A program made the position numbers and the translations under genes. A stretch of DNA of 51,457 bases from Gemmatimonadota bacterium (GTDB lineage Bacteria; JBHIER01; G020348925): assembly GCA_020348925.1 (NCBI GenBank), contig CP070758.1, positions 3,949,481 through 4,000,937 on the forward strand. Direction: 5' to 3'. Each line of letters opens with the position of its first letter. Within the stretch, counting starts at the first letter, position 1. Positions 44,036-50,773 of this stretch are shown one piece after another. The notes under the pieces were generated by a model, which was given only the letters and a program-made list of their open reading frames with translations, did no database searches and was not told the origin of the DNA.

Positions 44036-44064
44036 TTGACACTGGAACAAATTTGACCTATTTT
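44036..44064 (+). promoter_or_regulatory. Sigma-70-type promoter of the secretion locus
   Basis: TTGACA (44036-44041), a 17-base spacer and TATTTT (44059-44064). Transcription is expected to start near 44071, producing a leader of about 190 bases before the ATG at 44264. Confidence 0.65.
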
Positions 44065-44070
44065 ACGTCA

Positions 44071-44263
44071 AAATACCAAAGAAAGGAGAATGCCCATACG
44101 TACTTGCTAAAGGTGTGTAATTTGACAGTTCGAGAGTAGTTTGTGAAGCCATTGAGCGGCGACCTTTAGCAAATCGAAGTATTGGCGTTTCCAATACACG
44201 GAGAGATGACCGGGTCGCCAACAAAGTGGCGCACTCGGTTTTTTACTTTCAAGGATACTGAGT
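44071..44263 (+). promoter_or_regulatory. Structured leader RNA with competing helices ending in a T6 run (attenuator or riboswitch candidate)
   Basis: Three helices share bases and cannot coexist. (A) TTGCTAAAGGT (44104-44114) pairs with ACCTTTAGCAA (44162-44172), 11 bp perfect. (B) GGCGACC (44158-44164) pairs with GGTCGCC (44213-44219), 7 bp perfect, enclosing the hairpin GTATTGG-CGTTT-CCAATAC (44179-44197). (C) CGCCA (44216-44220) pairs with TGGCG (44227-44231), and T6 follows at 44239-44244. A and B share 44162-44164; B and C share 44216-44219. Forming A would free the 3' side of B for C, the terminator-like helix. I do not recognise a known riboswitch class. The T-run starts 7 bases after stem C, so C is a weak terminator at best. 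Confidence 0.55.
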
Positions 44264-45418
44264 ATGAAACGTCCATGGACTCTGTGCATGTTTTTTATTA
44301 TCATAGTGAATATGATCCTTTCCTGCGCGGATGACAACCCTCTCGAGCCTGAGGATCGGAATCCAGCCATCACTGAGGTGAGAGTCCCTGAGAAAATGTG
44401 GACCGGAACGCAAACGAAGGTTATCGTCAGCGCTATCATCAATGACGCTCAGGGTCCGGCGGACATCGATTCGGCATCCCTGACGGTGCTCAGACCGGAT
44501 TCCATGACCGTCGCGCTCCACACTCTGCTCAACGATTCAGCCGCCCGCGGCGATCTGATCGCTTTCGATGGCGTCTTTTCCCGGGAAATCAGCACCGCTT
44601 TCGCTCAGGGTGAGGAGGGCCTCTACTTCTTTCTCTTTCGAGCCGTTGACAGCAAAGGATTCCGCAGCGAGGTTGTCGTTGCGTCCGTCCCGGCTCTTCT
44701 GGGATCGAAAAACGATCCACCCTCAATATCCGACATCACCCTTCCGAACATTATTTCAGTCGATCCGTCGATCGAATTCCTTTGTAAAGTCTATGCTGAT
44801 GATCCCCAGGGTGTTATCGATTTAAGTTTTGTGATCTTCAGAATTCATCATTGGGAAAACCCAACCGTGATCAACACGGACACGATCTACGACGATGGTA
44901 TTGATCCGGATGCGATCAATGCGGACGGTATTTTTACGGGGACCTTTACGCCAGCCTTCGCTGACAGTGTGGTTGGATTCTATCCCTTTTCTTTTCAGGC
45001 CGTTGACATAAGTGGAGACGTAACCGATCTTGTTCGACGCGATGTACAGGTTATTTTTGAAGATAACTGGCCTCCGACGATTTTCAATCTCTCGGTCCCA
45101 GATACCTTCGATTCGGGCGCAGGGATCGACAACTTTCTCATCACGCTGGAGGTGGTGGATCCCCAGGGACTGGCCGATATAGATTCGGTCCACTTCACAT
45201 CTTTGAAGCCTGACAGTACATGGGCAAACAACGGACTTCCAATCCCGCTCTTCGATGATGGAACGTTCGGTGATGTCGTTCCAGGCGACGGTGTGTACTC
45301 CTTCAAGGCTATTTTCGATCCAACAGCTCAAAAAGGAGACTACGTCTGGACATTCGAGGCCGTGGATCGAAGTGGGGCGAAGTCAAACACGATAGTTCAC
45401 ATCCTTACTATTCAATAG
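44264..45418 (+). CDS. Lipoprotein with tandem Ig-like repeats
   Basis: A 384-residue protein. The signal peptide ends in the lipobox-like MILSC (C about 21) before ADDNPLEPEDRNP. The rest is about three repeats of roughly 110 residues, each with PP or NP followed by I..V..P, a central DPQG(L/V)(A/I)DIDSV-like segment, DDG or GDG before an aromatic turn, and a closing Y.F.F.AVD..G..S. This looks like a beta-sandwich stalk. The protein is probably displayed on the outer membrane or in the periplasm. AAGGA lies 8 bp before the ATG. It heads a plus-strand set with the propeller and PorV-like genes, 5 bp before the next gene. Confidence 0.75.
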   Translation: MKRPWTLCMFFIIIVNMILSCADDNPLEPEDRNPAITEVRVPEKMWTGTQTKVIVSAIINDAQGPADIDSASLTVLRPDSMTVALHTLLNDSAARGDLIAFDGVFSREISTAFAQGEEGLYFFLFRAVDSKGFRSEVVVASVPALLGSKNDPPSISDITLPNIISVDPSIEFLCKVYADDPQGVIDLSFVIFRIHHWENPTVINTDTIYDDGIDPDAINADGIFTGTFTPAFADSVVGFYPFSFQAVDISGDVTDLVRRDVQVIFEDNWPPTIFNLSVPDTFDSGAGIDNFLITLEVVDPQGLADIDSVHFTSLKPDSTWANNGLPIPLFDDGTFGDVVPGDGVYSFKAIFDPTAQKGDYVWTFEAVDRSGAKSNTIVHILTIQ

Positions 45419-45423
45419 GCACA

Positions 45424-46833
45424 GTGAAAACACATATTCTTTCAATTTTTATTCTTTTCTTATCAATAAACTCCGGGGACTCCCAACTACTCAACAAGGG
45501 TTCGTTCACGTTTGAGGGCGAGATGTCGACAGGTCTCGCCGGAAATGGTATTATCGACATCCTTGCTGACGACGGTACCATTTGGGTGGCGACCGGCAAC
45601 GGATTAAATAAAACAACGGATGGCGGTCAGACATGGATTACCTATGATCACAGAAACGGCCTCGGTCGTGGCGGTGTGAGTGCCATCGCCATACGGAACG
45701 ACATCGTATGGGTCGCCACAGCCTATGACACCACCGTCCAGGGTGACGATCTGCCAACGGGCGGAGGTCTCAGTTACTCCCTCAATGACGGTGACACGTG
45801 GACCCACATCCCGCAACCGGGGATCACACCCATCCAGGGCTTGTCCTACGACATTGCTCTCACGGATTCCAGCATATGGCTGGCCAGTTTCGGGCAGAGC
45901 CTCCAGTTTTCGGCCGACGGCGGTTCCAGTTGGACCACAAGGGTTCCGGACCGATTTCCGTGGGATCCCTTGAAATATCTGAATCACCGTGCGTTCTCCG
46001 TGATCACGACGGAGAACGACATCTGGGTTGGTACTGCCGGCGGTATCAACCGCAGTAGTGACGGCGGTCGGACATGGAGGAATATGAACCACGACAACGC
46101 GGGACTTTCCGGAAATTTCGTCGTGGCCTTGGGGGAGCAGAAGTATGACGGCAAAAGCGTCATCTGGGGGGCCACCTGGAAGGCGGAAGGCCCGGGCGAA
46201 TACTACGGCGTCAGCAAGACCGAAAACAACGGCCTGACCTGGAAGACCTCTCTCAAAGGAGAGTTCGTGCACAATTTCGCCTTCGACGGATCAACGGTGT
46301 ATGCGGCCACGGACAATGGACTCATGAAATCAAACGACGGTGGAGAGACCTGGGGTACGTTTCCGCAAATGGTGGACAAAGACACCGGAGAAAGGATCGA
46401 CTGGCGCGTATTTTACTCCGTGCGAGCCCACAACGGGGTTCTCTGGGCCGGTGGCGCCGACGGACTGGCGAAGACCGAGGATAATGGCCTCAGCTGGACT
46501 GTCTTCCGGGCCTTTGATCCGACCCAAAAAGAGGAGACATACGCCTACCCCAACCCCTGGTCCCCTCTGCGTTGGGAGAGCAACGATCTCCCACCACTTC
46601 GACTCCAATATCACACGACCAAAGACACGAGAGTAACCATAAAGATTTACGATTTTGCTCTAGATCACGTCAGAACTCTCGTGGACGGGAAGTTCCGCGG
46701 TCCCGGGGATTTCTCTGAAATCTGGGATGGGCGAAATGAGGGTGGTGAGGTTGTGGCCAATGGAGTCTATTATTACGTGGTCGAGAAAGCAGAAGACGGA
46801 ACAGCTCATGGGAAGATCGTTATCTTGGACTAA
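45424..46833 (+). CDS. Secreted Asp-box beta-propeller protein with a FlgD-like C-terminal domain
   Basis: A 469-residue protein starting at GTG 45424 with a signal peptide (about 1-20, HILSIFILFLSINSGDSQ). At least seven Asp-box-like turns are present: TTDGGQTW, LNDGDTW, SADGGSSW, SSDGGRTW, TENNGLTW, SNDGGETW, TEDNGLSW. They imply a seven-bladed sialidase/BNR-type propeller. The last 95 residues start AYPNPWSPLRWESNDL and include VTIKIYDFALDHVRTL and GEVVANGVYYYVV, a FlgD Ig-like domain of the kind that directs or follows type IX secretion in FCB bacteria. Function is probably structural or binding; no enzyme residues stand out. Confidence 0.85.
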   Translation: MKTHILSIFILFLSINSGDSQLLNKGSFTFEGEMSTGLAGNGIIDILADDGTIWVATGNGLNKTTDGGQTWITYDHRNGLGRGGVSAIAIRNDIVWVATAYDTTVQGDDLPTGGGLSYSLNDGDTWTHIPQPGITPIQGLSYDIALTDSSIWLASFGQSLQFSADGGSSWTTRVPDRFPWDPLKYLNHRAFSVITTENDIWVGTAGGINRSSDGGRTWRNMNHDNAGLSGNFVVALGEQKYDGKSVIWGATWKAEGPGEYYGVSKTENNGLTWKTSLKGEFVHNFAFDGSTVYAATDNGLMKSNDGGETWGTFPQMVDKDTGERIDWRVFYSVRAHNGVLWAGGADGLAKTEDNGLSWTVFRAFDPTQKEETYAYPNPWSPLRWESNDLPPLRLQYHTTKDTRVTIKIYDFALDHVRTLVDGKFRGPGDFSEIWDGRNEGGEVVANGVYYYVVEKAEDGTAHGKIVILD

Positions 46834-46839
46834 ACAGGT

Positions 46840-47769
46840 ATGATGAGAAAGAATATCACGTACATCTTGATCGTAACGGCTTTCCTTCCCCACGTGCTCC
46901 GGGCAGATGATGGTCACGGAGGGTATGCTGGGGCATTTTTGAAAATAGGAGCAGGAGCACGAGCGTTGGCCATGGGAAGCGCCTTCACGGCTGTGGCCGA
47001 CGACCACTCGGCCTTCATATACAATCCGGCGGGTGTAGCCCTCATTATGGGACAGGACGTGGGCCTTTCTTACGCCCTCATGTCCTTCGACCGTAGACTC
47101 GGTTTTATCGGTTTCGTAACGGAACTGAAGCCGAACGGCGGACTCGGCCTCGGATGGATCAACGCCGGAGATTCGAACATCGATGGTCGTGACACGAACG
47201 GGCAGCCTACAGGTGATCTCTCCTATTCCGACAACGCCTTCTTCTTCTCCTTCGCCCAACAGATCGGACGATACGGAGCCCTCGGTATTGGAATGAGATA
47301 TTTATATCAAAAACTGGAGGACCAGACGGCCAAGGGCTTTGGGATCGATGCCGGCGCCCGTCTTCACATTCTGCCTCAACTCTGGATTGGTGGTGTGGTC
47401 CAGAATATAAACGCCAAATATACATGGAACACCTCTTACTGGGAAAGAGAAACGACGACCAAGGACGAAGTCCCCCTTCAGTTCAGGATGGGCTCAGCCT
47501 ACCGACTCCTCCAGAACAAACTCCTCTTGGCTATCGATGTCGGTAAAAACACGGAACAGGATGTGGCTTTCTACGGTGGCGGTGAATACCGGGTCAATGG
47601 CCAGTTCAGCCTGCGAGCCGGCTTGAAAGATGGTGAATTGACAGCCGGAGGAAGCTTTCTTCAATTTGTGCAATGGGGCGACATGCGCATCGACTACACC
47701 TTCATAGCCCACATGAGGGGCCTGGGAAGCACACATCTCTTCTCACTGGGCTATCGCTTTTCGGACTGA
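46840..47769 (+). CDS. PorV/PorQ-like outer-membrane beta-barrel protein (first copy)
   Basis: A 309-residue protein with a signal peptide (1 to about 22). After it come AGAFLKIGAGARALAMGSAF and the DHSAFIYNPAGVALI segment, which are the conserved opening of the PorV/PorQ (UPF0164) family. Alternating beta-strands follow, ending in the aromatic LFSLGYRF near the C-terminus. Family knowledge: PorV is the type IX secretion shuttle that takes cargo from the translocon to the attachment complex; other members have less clear roles. It lies 6 bp after the propeller gene and 42 bp before a second copy, so cargo and shuttle genes share a transcript. Confidence 0.88.
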   Translation: MMRKNITYILIVTAFLPHVLRADDGHGGYAGAFLKIGAGARALAMGSAFTAVADDHSAFIYNPAGVALIMGQDVGLSYALMSFDRRLGFIGFVTELKPNGGLGLGWINAGDSNIDGRDTNGQPTGDLSYSDNAFFFSFAQQIGRYGALGIGMRYLYQKLEDQTAKGFGIDAGARLHILPQLWIGGVVQNINAKYTWNTSYWERETTTKDEVPLQFRMGSAYRLLQNKLLLAIDVGKNTEQDVAFYGGGEYRVNGQFSLRAGLKDGELTAGGSFLQFVQWGDMRIDYTFIAHMRGLGSTHLFSLGYRFSD

Positions 47770-47811: not shown

Positions 47812-48729
47812 ATGAAAAAATTGTATTCCGTTGTCCTCATAGTCATTATGGCTTCACCGCCCGCCCTCTCGGGAGAGATTTATTCCAAAGCCGGTTCCAA
47901 AGGACTCTCGTTCCTCAAAATTGGCCTTGGAGCCAGAGCCGGGGCTCTGGGTGACGCCTACGTCTCCCTAGCAAACGATGCCACCGCGCCGCTGTGGAAC
48001 CCTGCAGGACTCAACTCCATCGATGGCAGAGATGTTCTTTTCATTCACAACCAGTGGTTCCAGGACATCCGGAGCGAATTTGTGGGAACTGCAATGACCT
48101 TTGGGAATGACGGTTTCGGTCTAGGTTTCCTGTTCAACACCGTTGGAGACATTGAGAACAGGGCTCCACAAACCGGAAAACTGATCGGCACCTTCAGCAC
48201 CTACGACATCGCTTTCACCGGGGCGTATGCGAGGCGTTTCACTCGACAGATAAGCCTCGGTATGACGCTCAAAATTCTCTATGAAAAGATCCACATCTAC
48301 TCATCCTCAGGGTTTGCTCTCGATTTAGGAGCTCGTATTTCCCCGGGAATTGACAATGTAACCTTAGGGGCTGTCATACAAAATATTGGAAAGATGGGCA
48401 CCATGAGGAACGAAGAGACGCCCTTGCCCTTGACGACGAAGGTAGGTCTCAATTATGTATCGACAGTTGAATCGCTCAACGGCACCCTCCTTTTCACAGC
48501 CGATGTCAACAAAGCTTCAGACTACAGAACGACCTTTCACACCGGTCTCGAATACAGCCTGAACCAACGTCTCGCCCTACGTGGCGGCTATCAATTCGGA
48601 CAGGATGAACGGAGCTTTTCGGCTGGCATAGGACTCAGGCTCAACATGTATCGCCTGGACTATGCTTACGCTCCATACGATTATGATCTGGGGGATACAC
48701 ACAGACTGACCTTTGGAATCTCCTTGTAA
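47812..48729 (+). CDS. PorV/PorQ-like outer-membrane beta-barrel protein (second copy)
   Basis: A 305-residue protein with a signal peptide (about 1-21), then SFLKIGLGARAGALGDAYVS and DATAPLWNPAGLNSIDGRDV, the family opening. It ends LTFGISL as barrel proteins do. It is clearly a paralogue of the preceding gene: the IG.GARA.A.G.A and NPAG motifs line up, but the loops differ. CAGGAG upstream fixes the start. A tandem pair suggests different cargo or shuttle/translocon roles. The sequence cannot say which one, if either, is the true PorV. Confidence 0.88.
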   Translation: MKKLYSVVLIVIMASPPALSGEIYSKAGSKGLSFLKIGLGARAGALGDAYVSLANDATAPLWNPAGLNSIDGRDVLFIHNQWFQDIRSEFVGTAMTFGNDGFGLGFLFNTVGDIENRAPQTGKLIGTFSTYDIAFTGAYARRFTRQISLGMTLKILYEKIHIYSSSGFALDLGARISPGIDNVTLGAVIQNIGKMGTMRNEETPLPLTTKVGLNYVSTVESLNGTLLFTADVNKASDYRTTFHTGLEYSLNQRLALRGGYQFGQDERSFSAGIGLRLNMYRLDYAYAPYDYDLGDTHRLTFGISL

Positions 48730-48835: not shown

Positions 48836-50773
48836 ATGACACGCGTGGTCTCCACGTTAGCGAGAAAACGTATGCTGCTCCACATCTTACTTTCCAGGCA
48901 TTTCAGGGAAAAGCTCCGTTATCTCATCCCCTGCCTGGCCTTGATACTCAATCCACTGACGATCCGAGGACTCGACGCTCAGGGGAAGGGTGCCTCGAGT
49001 CATCCGGACAGTCTTTCTGCGCCACAATGGCGTCTGTCCGTTAGCGATCCTTACTATCCCATCCGTCCCGGTTTAACCATTATATATATAATCACTTATG
49101 AAAACACAGGCGGCTCCCCTGCTGCGAACGCAACACTTGTAAGCATTCTGGATCCCCTGACTGAATATTTGCTGAGTACCGGAGCCGGCATCTATAATGG
49201 AAACTGTCATTGCGTCACCTGGGACCTGGGAGAAATAGAACCCGCTGGGGGAGGCCGCGTCATTCTGAGAGTTCAAACCCTCGAGGGAATCCCCCATGGA
49301 ACCGAAGTCGTGAACTCGACAACCATATCCTGCGCTGAAGGCATACACAGCGATACAACTCTCATAACACCCATCACCTATATCTCCATCCTCAAGATTT
49401 ACAAAACGACTCCTGTGATATCTGCTTATCCTGGCCAGGAGATCGTCTACGATTTACAATATACCAATGTAGGGGACACCTCTGCCGCAAACGTTCTGCT
49501 TACTGACCTTTTGCCCCGGCAAACAAGCTTTGTTTCTTGCACCCAGGGTTGTCTTTTCGACTCCTCGGAGGAGAGTATCTCGTGGGAAATTGGAGAGGTC
49601 CGACCCGGAAGTCTGTTCGCCGTCCAGCTCATCCTGCGCATAGACAGCACATTCAGCGGTGAGACCTCCATCATCAACGAAGCCAAAATCACATGTGATG
49701 AGGAAAGCTCCGACAGCAGTTTTTGCGTAACCACTGTAGACACGACAGCGACCACTTCGGGGTTCCCCGCGTTTGCTTTTTTCATCAAAAGCCGGGATCA
49801 CTTCGTTTCAGCAGGAAACGAGATGCTTTACCGAATACATTGCGAAAACATCGGGAGAGAAACGGCGCACGCCCTCATGATAACGAACCCTATTCCCGAA
49901 CATACCGACTACGTCAATTCCAGCAATGGCGGCCAATACGACCCATCATGCGAAAAAGTGACATGGTCTCTCGAAGAACTGGAACGCCATCAAGAAAAGA
50001 CAGTGACGCTCACAGTAAGTGTTACAAGCCCCCTTTCACCTCGAACGGTTATTATAAATAGGGCAACCGTCACCTGCTCTGAAGGTTTTTCAGCCAGTGC
50101 TCTTGACACGACAATCGTCCTCTCGTCCCCAAAATGGGATCTCCGAACTTGGACCATCCCTCAGATCATCATTCCCGGTCAACCTGTCATTATAACAACA
50201 CGATTGAGCAACGTGGGAAATATGAATGCCACAAACACTGTCATCACAAATCCCATACCACCCTACACCTTCCATGTCAACAGCACGAACGAAGGGGTCT
50301 TTGATGCCGAGGAAAATGCCGTAACCTGGAATATTGGAGCTCTCAACGTGAATGATGCATCGACAGTTTCTTTAACCCTATCCTCTGACGCGAATTTTCC
50401 TCCTGACGAGGAAATCATCAACCGGGTTTATGTTCGAAGCCAGGAAACAGCTGATTCTGCGGCAATTTCCATTCCGGTGTTCATACCTCAGGGCCACCAA
50501 CTCAGTCAAAATCATCCAAATCCTTTCAATAAGAACACCACGATAGACTATCAACTCTCGAAAGATGATCGTGTTCTTTTAAAAATACACAATATCCTCG
50601 CTCAAGAAATCGCAATCCTCGTCGATGAGTACAAAAAGGCCGGTGTGTATTCTGTAGGATGGGACGGAAGAGACGCACAAGGGCAGAATGTCCCAAGTGG
50701 AATTTACCTTTTCACTTTGTCCGTACATAACGGAGTGTGGTCAGAGACGAAGAAAATGGTGTTGCTGCAATGA
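48836..50773 (+). CDS. Secreted DUF11-repeat protein with a type IX-like C-terminal sorting domain
   Basis: A 645-residue protein. A long basic N-terminus precedes the hydrophobic signal (about 28-45, YLIPCLALILNPLTIRGL). Four DUF11-type repeats follow, each opening like PGQEIVYDLQYTNVGDTSAA, with N.G. then .T.LLP or .TNPIP, and a later (V/I)(T/S)W.(I/L)GE. These are beta-sandwich adhesin-like domains. The last 90 residues begin SQNHPNPFNKNTTIDYQL and end with GIYLFTLSVHNGVWSETKKM, an almost classical type IX sorting/FlgD-like tail. It is a probable cell-surface or released cargo of the system whose PorV-like shuttles lie just upstream. AGGAG lies 6 bp before the ATG. Confidence 0.85.
   Translation: MTRVVSTLARKRMLLHILLSRHFREKLRYLIPCLALILNPLTIRGLDAQGKGASSHPDSLSAPQWRLSVSDPYYPIRPGLTIIYIITYENTGGSPAANATLVSILDPLTEYLLSTGAGIYNGNCHCVTWDLGEIEPAGGGRVILRVQTLEGIPHGTEVVNSTTISCAEGIHSDTTLITPITYISILKIYKTTPVISAYPGQEIVYDLQYTNVGDTSAANVLLTDLLPRQTSFVSCTQGCLFDSSEESISWEIGEVRPGSLFAVQLILRIDSTFSGETSIINEAKITCDEESSDSSFCVTTVDTTATTSGFPAFAFFIKSRDHFVSAGNEMLYRIHCENIGRETAHALMITNPIPEHTDYVNSSNGGQYDPSCEKVTWSLEELERHQEKTVTLTVSVTSPLSPRTVIINRATVTCSEGFSASALDTTIVLSSPKWDLRTWTIPQIIIPGQPVIITTRLSNVGNMNATNTVITNPIPPYTFHVNSTNEGVFDAEENAVTWNIGALNVNDASTVSLTLSSDANFPPDEEIINRVYVRSQETADSAAISIPVFIPQGHQLSQNHPNPFNKNTTIDYQLSKDDRVLLKIHNILAQEIAILVDEYKKAGVYSVGWDGRDAQGQNVPSGIYLFTLSVHNGVWSETKKMVLLQ

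Follow-up and report, generated by a model that had tools for sequence, protein, structure and literature searches.

Several described systems resemble the leader analysed here. In OFF-type riboswitches such as the purine and SAM-I classes, a 5′ leader likewise carries a sensor whose 3′ strand is common to the antiterminator, and a U-tract terminator lies before the first gene. Ribosomal protein leaders and attenuators of the TRAP/PyrR/BglG type also have mutually exclusive terminators and antiterminators, with conserved sequence in the paired strands, and T-box leaders place the same choice ahead of an operon. The present leader, at positions 44071-44263 of the analysed stretch of DNA (51,457 nucleotides, hereafter the window), differs from each of them. 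As compared with OFF-type riboswitches, its sensor is a long stem of two helices in which no junction can be recognised, its regulon is made of PorV/secretion genes and it falls outside the Rfam classes. In contrast to the protein-controlled attenuators, it precedes an operon with no ribosomal protein, trp, pyr or PTS gene, and a cognate protein is only hypothetical. Unlike for T-boxes, no tRNA-synthetase or amino-acid gene is found here, and the Rfam scan gave no T-box match. The S6-S18-Chlorobi leader (RF03134) produces a sub-threshold covariance match over 44104-44172 (14 bits, E 8.9, for a gathering score of 47.4), mainly to the closing helix; with this score, and with no ribosomal protein gene downstream of the window leader, membership in that family was rejected. 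An earlier note on this DNA knew of no riboswitch class that would fit, and this held: Rfam 15 gave no match for the window, the leader or its homologues, in permissive scans too, and no family, c-di-GMP-I and T-box included, reached its gathering score for the leader. PorV-type proteins serve the type IX sorting system. Dosage control of this system appears unstudied: text searches of the literature, with incomplete coverage (a large 2017 structured-RNA survey, for example, lay outside), returned no paper in which a leader of this kind is connected with PorV, KSB1 or type IX secretion.

Comparison with homologous sequences makes it very probable that the window leader is a cis-acting transcription attenuator and that it belongs to a conserved RNA family, not catalogued before, whose targets are PorV-type (type IX secretion-like) operons. 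The features of the leader are the following.

44036-44064, forward strand: promoter, with -35 TTGACA (44036-44041), a 17-nt spacer and -10 TATTTT (44059-44064); consensus scan
44085-44099, forward strand: 5′ arm of helix P0, GGAGAaUGCCcAUAC; minimum free energy (MFE) fold and R3 alignment
44104-44114, forward strand: 5′ arm of helix A, UUGCUAAAGGU; fold and alignments
44115-44161, forward strand: variable apical region within helix A; leader comparison
44158-44165, forward strand: 5′ strand of the antiterminator (helix B), GGCGACC(U); fold and permutation tests
44162-44172, forward strand: 3′ arm of helix A, ACCUUUAGCAA, overlapping the 5′ strand of the antiterminator; fold and alignment
44179-44192, forward strand: 3′ arm of helix P0, GUAUuGGCGUUUCC; 44179-44185 alternatively pairs with 44191-44197 (hairpin inside helix B); folds
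44210-44244, forward strand: intrinsic terminator, stem 44210-44220 with 44227-44238 (one bulge) and U-run 44239-44244; fold and homologues
44212-44219, forward strand: 3′ strand of the antiterminator (helix B), GGGUCGCC, within the 5′ arm of the terminator; permutation tests
44251-44255, forward strand: likely Shine-Dalgarno sequence AAGGA of the first gene, as judged from the sequence

The earlier note had described an 11-bp helix A, a helix B (44158-44164 with 44213-44219, GGCGACC/GGUCGCC) and a perfect 7-bp hairpin enclosed by B (44179-44185/44191-44197), all of which are found where it had placed them. Its helix C (44216-44220 with 44227-44231) is present as well; however, the T6 does not follow C itself but the full terminator stem, of which C is only the upper part. 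An additional helix had been missed: P0 (13 pairs) encloses A in the MFE fold and competes with the small 7-bp hairpin. The whole leader folds with a z-score of -3.2, none of 200 dinucleotide shuffles being as stable, and the terminator stem folded alone reaches -19.7 kcal/mol, for a shuffle mean of -9.1 (z -4.2). In the R3 alignment described below, GGAG in the 5′ arm of P0 is nearly invariant among KSB1 leaders. The apical region spans only 26-28 nt in the closest homologues before the lipoprotein operon and is longer in the porV leaders.

From the position of the promoter, transcription is expected to start near 44071, that is, upstream of helix A, so that the whole element would lie inside the 5′ leader. 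A start downstream of 44114, which the earlier note had named as incompatible with its model, is not what the promoter indicates, either here or before most homologous leaders; similar promoters, with 16-19 nt spacing, precede about 30 of 44 of them. The U-run ends about 20 nt ahead of the ATG at 44264. With a promoter upstream and so short a gap between terminator and start codon, the first gene should depend on readthrough of an intrinsic terminator that stands between the element and its coding sequence. Assignment of this terminator to the upstream gene was set aside, since that gene, ptsN, is on the opposite strand.

Homologous leaders were sought around the operon. Whereas a search of genome contigs with the lipoprotein alone returned no relative, alignment of the propeller did, and a propeller-profile scan yielded 80 loci, mostly from KSB1, Kryptonia and Ignavibacteria. 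In many of these, a domain with helices resembling P0/A comes first and is followed by a U-tract terminator whose stem is CCGAG..CUCGG or CCGAAUG..CAUUCGG; the lipoprotein start is mostly 10-55 nt further on. Within the 769 kb of these loci, both strands included, CTCGGTTTTTT or CATTCGG[AT]TTTT is present 20 times, and 19 of the 20 are at the leader position (those of the window and of 18 other loci, that of L063 lying farther upstream, in a partial leader); as a background, a simple scan of the same 769 kb finds 74 hairpin-plus-T6 sites in all. At leader positions of L045-L124, the terminator core CCGA:UCGG (CCGR..UCGG) shows more conservation across phyla than termination alone would require, which raises the question of recognition by a protein.

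Covariation was examined in an alignment, based on sequence only, of L065, L066, L077 and the window with its apical loop trimmed. All four sequences retain ten of ten consecutive aligned pairs of helix A, and three of these pairs show two-sided changes (an alternative register would give five; the smaller count was used). As high a covariation was reached by 7 of 500 shuffles, and sliding controls were much lower. MAFFT had mis-registered the 3′ half of the window leader, with its long apical loop; this was mended by the trimming and by model-based alignment. A covariance model built from L065 and L066 only (R1), too narrow for general search, ranks 44083-44199 of the window among two non-self sense matches in 725 kb; the match is weak when taken alone (E 4.2) and at the expected place. 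In many KSB1 genomes a recognisable leader is absent before the operon, and a search of 98 whole genomes with the leader DNA gave chance matches only. Some upstream regions show related elements. In two KSB1 genomes (L218, about 755-800, and L220, about 730-775, strand-corrected), a leader-like start GGAG..UUUGUUACC precedes the operon without a recognisable terminator, and is possibly a decayed or translational version. Upstream of position 3336 in L082, a promoter is followed almost directly by a short CCGAAC/GTTCGG terminator without sensor domain, a possible minimal or degenerate leader.

A second genomic context emerged with a model of P0 and A from the window, L065, L066 and L077 (R3), from which the terminator was left out. 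Run on 82 genomes of the KSB1 phylum, R3 recovered three of its own training loci and about 15 further sense matches (E 9e-7 to 0.4), one per genome. Each of the 13 inspected matches is immediately followed by a gene other than that of the lipoprotein, a stand-alone porV (..AVSEAAVLFLLISPGARAAGMGEAFVALADDATAVYWNPAGLAFQ..), and a terminator stands between leader and porV in 11 of them, in 10 by the simple pattern CCGAAUG..CAUUCGG and in L261 by eye, the other two being unclear. Neither the porV context nor the terminator was part of the model. When 14 leaders from both contexts are aligned, 8 of 15 pairs show two-sided changes, a count somewhat flattered by the fitting of R3 alignments to the model's own structure; the covariation score was reached by none of 500 shuffles and sliding controls were far lower. 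The window locus is the single R3 match in its genome, where the second porV (G000:C1:3291125) directly follows a sorting-tail gene and has no leader. In 386 other genomes R3 gave one further match (G596, E 0.017), not before a porV and judged to be chance, and it gave none in six genomes of the phylum of G055. Several of the porV leaders are located behind gcvH or gcvPA-like genes, as assigned by eye (L252-L264 and L268, around 1501-1620); this link to glycine cleavage genes may be positional only.

In Ignavibacteria, a probable diverged version of the leader precedes the same lipoprotein operon. A separate model from five Ignavibacteria leaders (R2) found six further genomes beyond its training set at E ≤ 0.004 (L102/L228, L243-L247). 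All these new matches are at the lipoprotein start with a terminator in between, the propeller comes next wherever enough downstream DNA was present, and there is one strong copy per genome. Two-sided changes affect 7 of 19 pairs, and none of 500 shuffles equalled the covariation. Thus, the covariation that the earlier note had asked for in homologous leaders is observed against shuffles in the four-leader, 14-leader and Ignavibacteria alignments, and the element has a conserved sensor domain of the kind expected of a riboswitch, ligand binding itself being hypothetical. R2 and R3 do not find each other's leaders. It is nevertheless likely that the KSB1 and Ignavibacteria leaders form one family, because they share architecture, position, the terminator core and a GUUCG(A/U)UA motif, and because L081 and L247 are intermediates. 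Taken as a whole, these RNAs are a candidate new class of the attenuator-leader kind and a candidate family for Rfam.

To assess the antiterminator in 21 leaders, the 62 nt preceding the terminator were paired with the terminator 5′ arm/loop, and the best uninterrupted helix was taken. This helix is stronger when a leader is combined with its own terminator than when the terminator comes from another species; the permutation test gives p about 2e-5 for contiguous helices and 4e-4 when duplex energies are used instead. In the window, the terminator segment was shuffled 300 times, and the pairing GGCGACCU:GGGUCGCC was better in every case (p 0.003). Corresponding pairs are CGGACUAGG:CCUAGUCCG in L065, CGAACCAGG:UCUGGUUCG in L066, UCCCGGCA:UGCCGGGA in L057, GCCCAGUU:GACUGGGC in L074, GCUUUAUUCU:AGGAUAAAGU in Ignavibacteria and GACUGUU:AACAGUC in L247. 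In these examples the 5′ strand of the antiterminator lies in or beside the 3′ side of A/P0, so that sensor, terminator and antiterminator are mutually exclusive; in the window, helix B competes with both helix A and the terminator. A conserved antiterminator sharing bases with the sensor helix and the terminator is therefore found, except in about 6 of the 21 leaders (L054, L089, L097, L063, L177, L217), where it is not convincing.

The following mechanism can be proposed. RNA polymerase would first produce the sensor domain, in which P0 encloses helix A with its variable apical loop. As long as P0/A stays closed, the terminator at 44210-44244 would form and stop transcription shortly ahead of the lipoprotein gene (OFF). 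Should A/P0 be opened, or kept from forming, the freed 3′ strand would pair with the terminator 5′ arm/loop as helix B, the terminator would not form and the operon would be transcribed (ON). Hence, a trigger that stabilises P0/A, be it a small molecule or an RNA-binding protein, would repress, and one that opens P0/A would induce. Calculated energies give some indication of timing. Once the 3′ strand of the antiterminator has been fully transcribed, just before completion of the terminator, the energies of the sensor and antiterminator folds lie 0-6 kcal/mol apart in 10 of 12 leaders, with a gap of 1.5 kcal/mol in the window. After completion, the terminator fold has an advantage of 5-20 kcal/mol over any alternative containing the antiterminator, so that switching must be kinetic or need a strong trigger. 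Near-balance before completion of the terminator and its win afterwards are the timing expected, according to these folding models, of a co-transcriptional switch. The earlier note had deduced from shared bases that A would favour the terminator and B prevent it. This attenuator logic is supported by the species-matched antiterminators, by covariation and by the lack of an Rfam match; the riboswitch part of the proposal stays a prediction, which the sequence comparisons do not yet support.

Two triggers can be considered within the attenuator explanation, as refinements of it rather than as competitors. In two unlinked contexts, both strands of helix A carry near-invariant nucleotides (UUCGUUAAAG/CUUUAACGAA), and these, like GGAG, are conserved beyond the needs of pairing. 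This conservation, along with the near-balance of both folds at the decision point, would suit a metabolite or ion bound by P0/A and the apical region, as in an orphan riboswitch. However, aptamers typically have a conserved junction of several helices or a long unpaired core that is invariant, and neither is seen here; the apical loop varies in length and sequence, and the regulon comprises only PorV/secretion genes and no metabolic gene, which leaves this trigger possible but doubtful. An RNA-binding protein that opens or holds P0/A, either in an envelope/secretion feedback or as a dedicated antiterminator, comes closer to an even chance. The conserved sequence is in the paired A strands and in the CCGA:UCGG terminator core, as a protein reading double strands would need, and leans slightly toward such a trigger. 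Moreover, the genes of the regulon make up a single protein machine, a situation known from autogenous regulation, and the folds alone favour OFF. Against this, no candidate protein gene was seen travelling with the leader. On the metabolite side, it may tentatively be suggested that the leaders of KSB1 and Ignavibacteria together constitute a new riboswitch class, which would sense a small molecule or ion and thereby adjust how much of the PorV-type outer-membrane sorting machinery is made.

Explanations other than attenuation fare less well. With its own promoter, stable fold and strong terminator, the element might be a free-standing small RNA of about 165-170 nt that merely precedes porV. 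Such a reading is improbable, as the gap from terminator to start codon, mostly 10-55 nt before the lipoprotein operon, leaves little or no room for a second promoter; the element is also next to PorV operons in two contexts and its antiterminator strand is conserved. In the window, GGAG is followed by an ATG and a 6-codon reading frame (44090, ATG CCC ATA CGT ACT TGC TAA) on which a stalled ribosome could set the fold. But only about 1 nt separates this Shine-Dalgarno-like motif from the ATG, a start codon is missing at this place in most homologues, and no run of regulatory codons is found; leader-peptide attenuation was accordingly rejected as highly unlikely. Hardly more credible is the idea that the arms are inverted half-sites of a DNA operator instead of RNA structure. 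Although both arms of helix A have a well-conserved sequence and form a near-dyad, the distance between them ranges from about 26 to more than 60 nt, the site is downstream of the promoter, the arms covary with G-U pairs included, and a terminator with a matched antiterminator follows.

The attenuator would thus control an operon that the earlier note had read as lipoprotein, propeller and PorV genes, and this assignment is borne out.

44264-45418, forward strand: lipoprotein with choice-of-anchor X stretches, first gene of the operon
45424-46833, forward strand: beta-propeller protein with a FlgD-like C-terminal sorting tail
46840-47769, forward strand: PorV/PorQ family protein (NCBIfam NF033709, 120.6 bits, cut-off 90)
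47812-48729, forward strand: second PorV/PorQ family protein (NF033709, 186 bits)

The same operon recurs in distant genomes, and the propeller is present in 71 of the 82 searched KSB1-phylum genomes, nearly always as a single copy. FlgD-like/type IX C-terminal sorting tails are encoded at about 145 places in the window genome, which suggests that the PorV/type IX system is probably responsible for much of the cell surface. If the proposed switch is real, this secretion system would be under control at the RNA level, and an RNA of 170 nt with one terminator, conserved across uncultured KSB1 and Ignavibacteria, would offer a small and directly testable entry to it. Among the sorting-tail places of this genome, the operon's propeller is the only full-length one. 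Downstream of the PorV pair, positions 48836-50773 encode a protein with DUF11 repeats and a sorting-type tail; it may be a secreted client, or its gene may close the operon.
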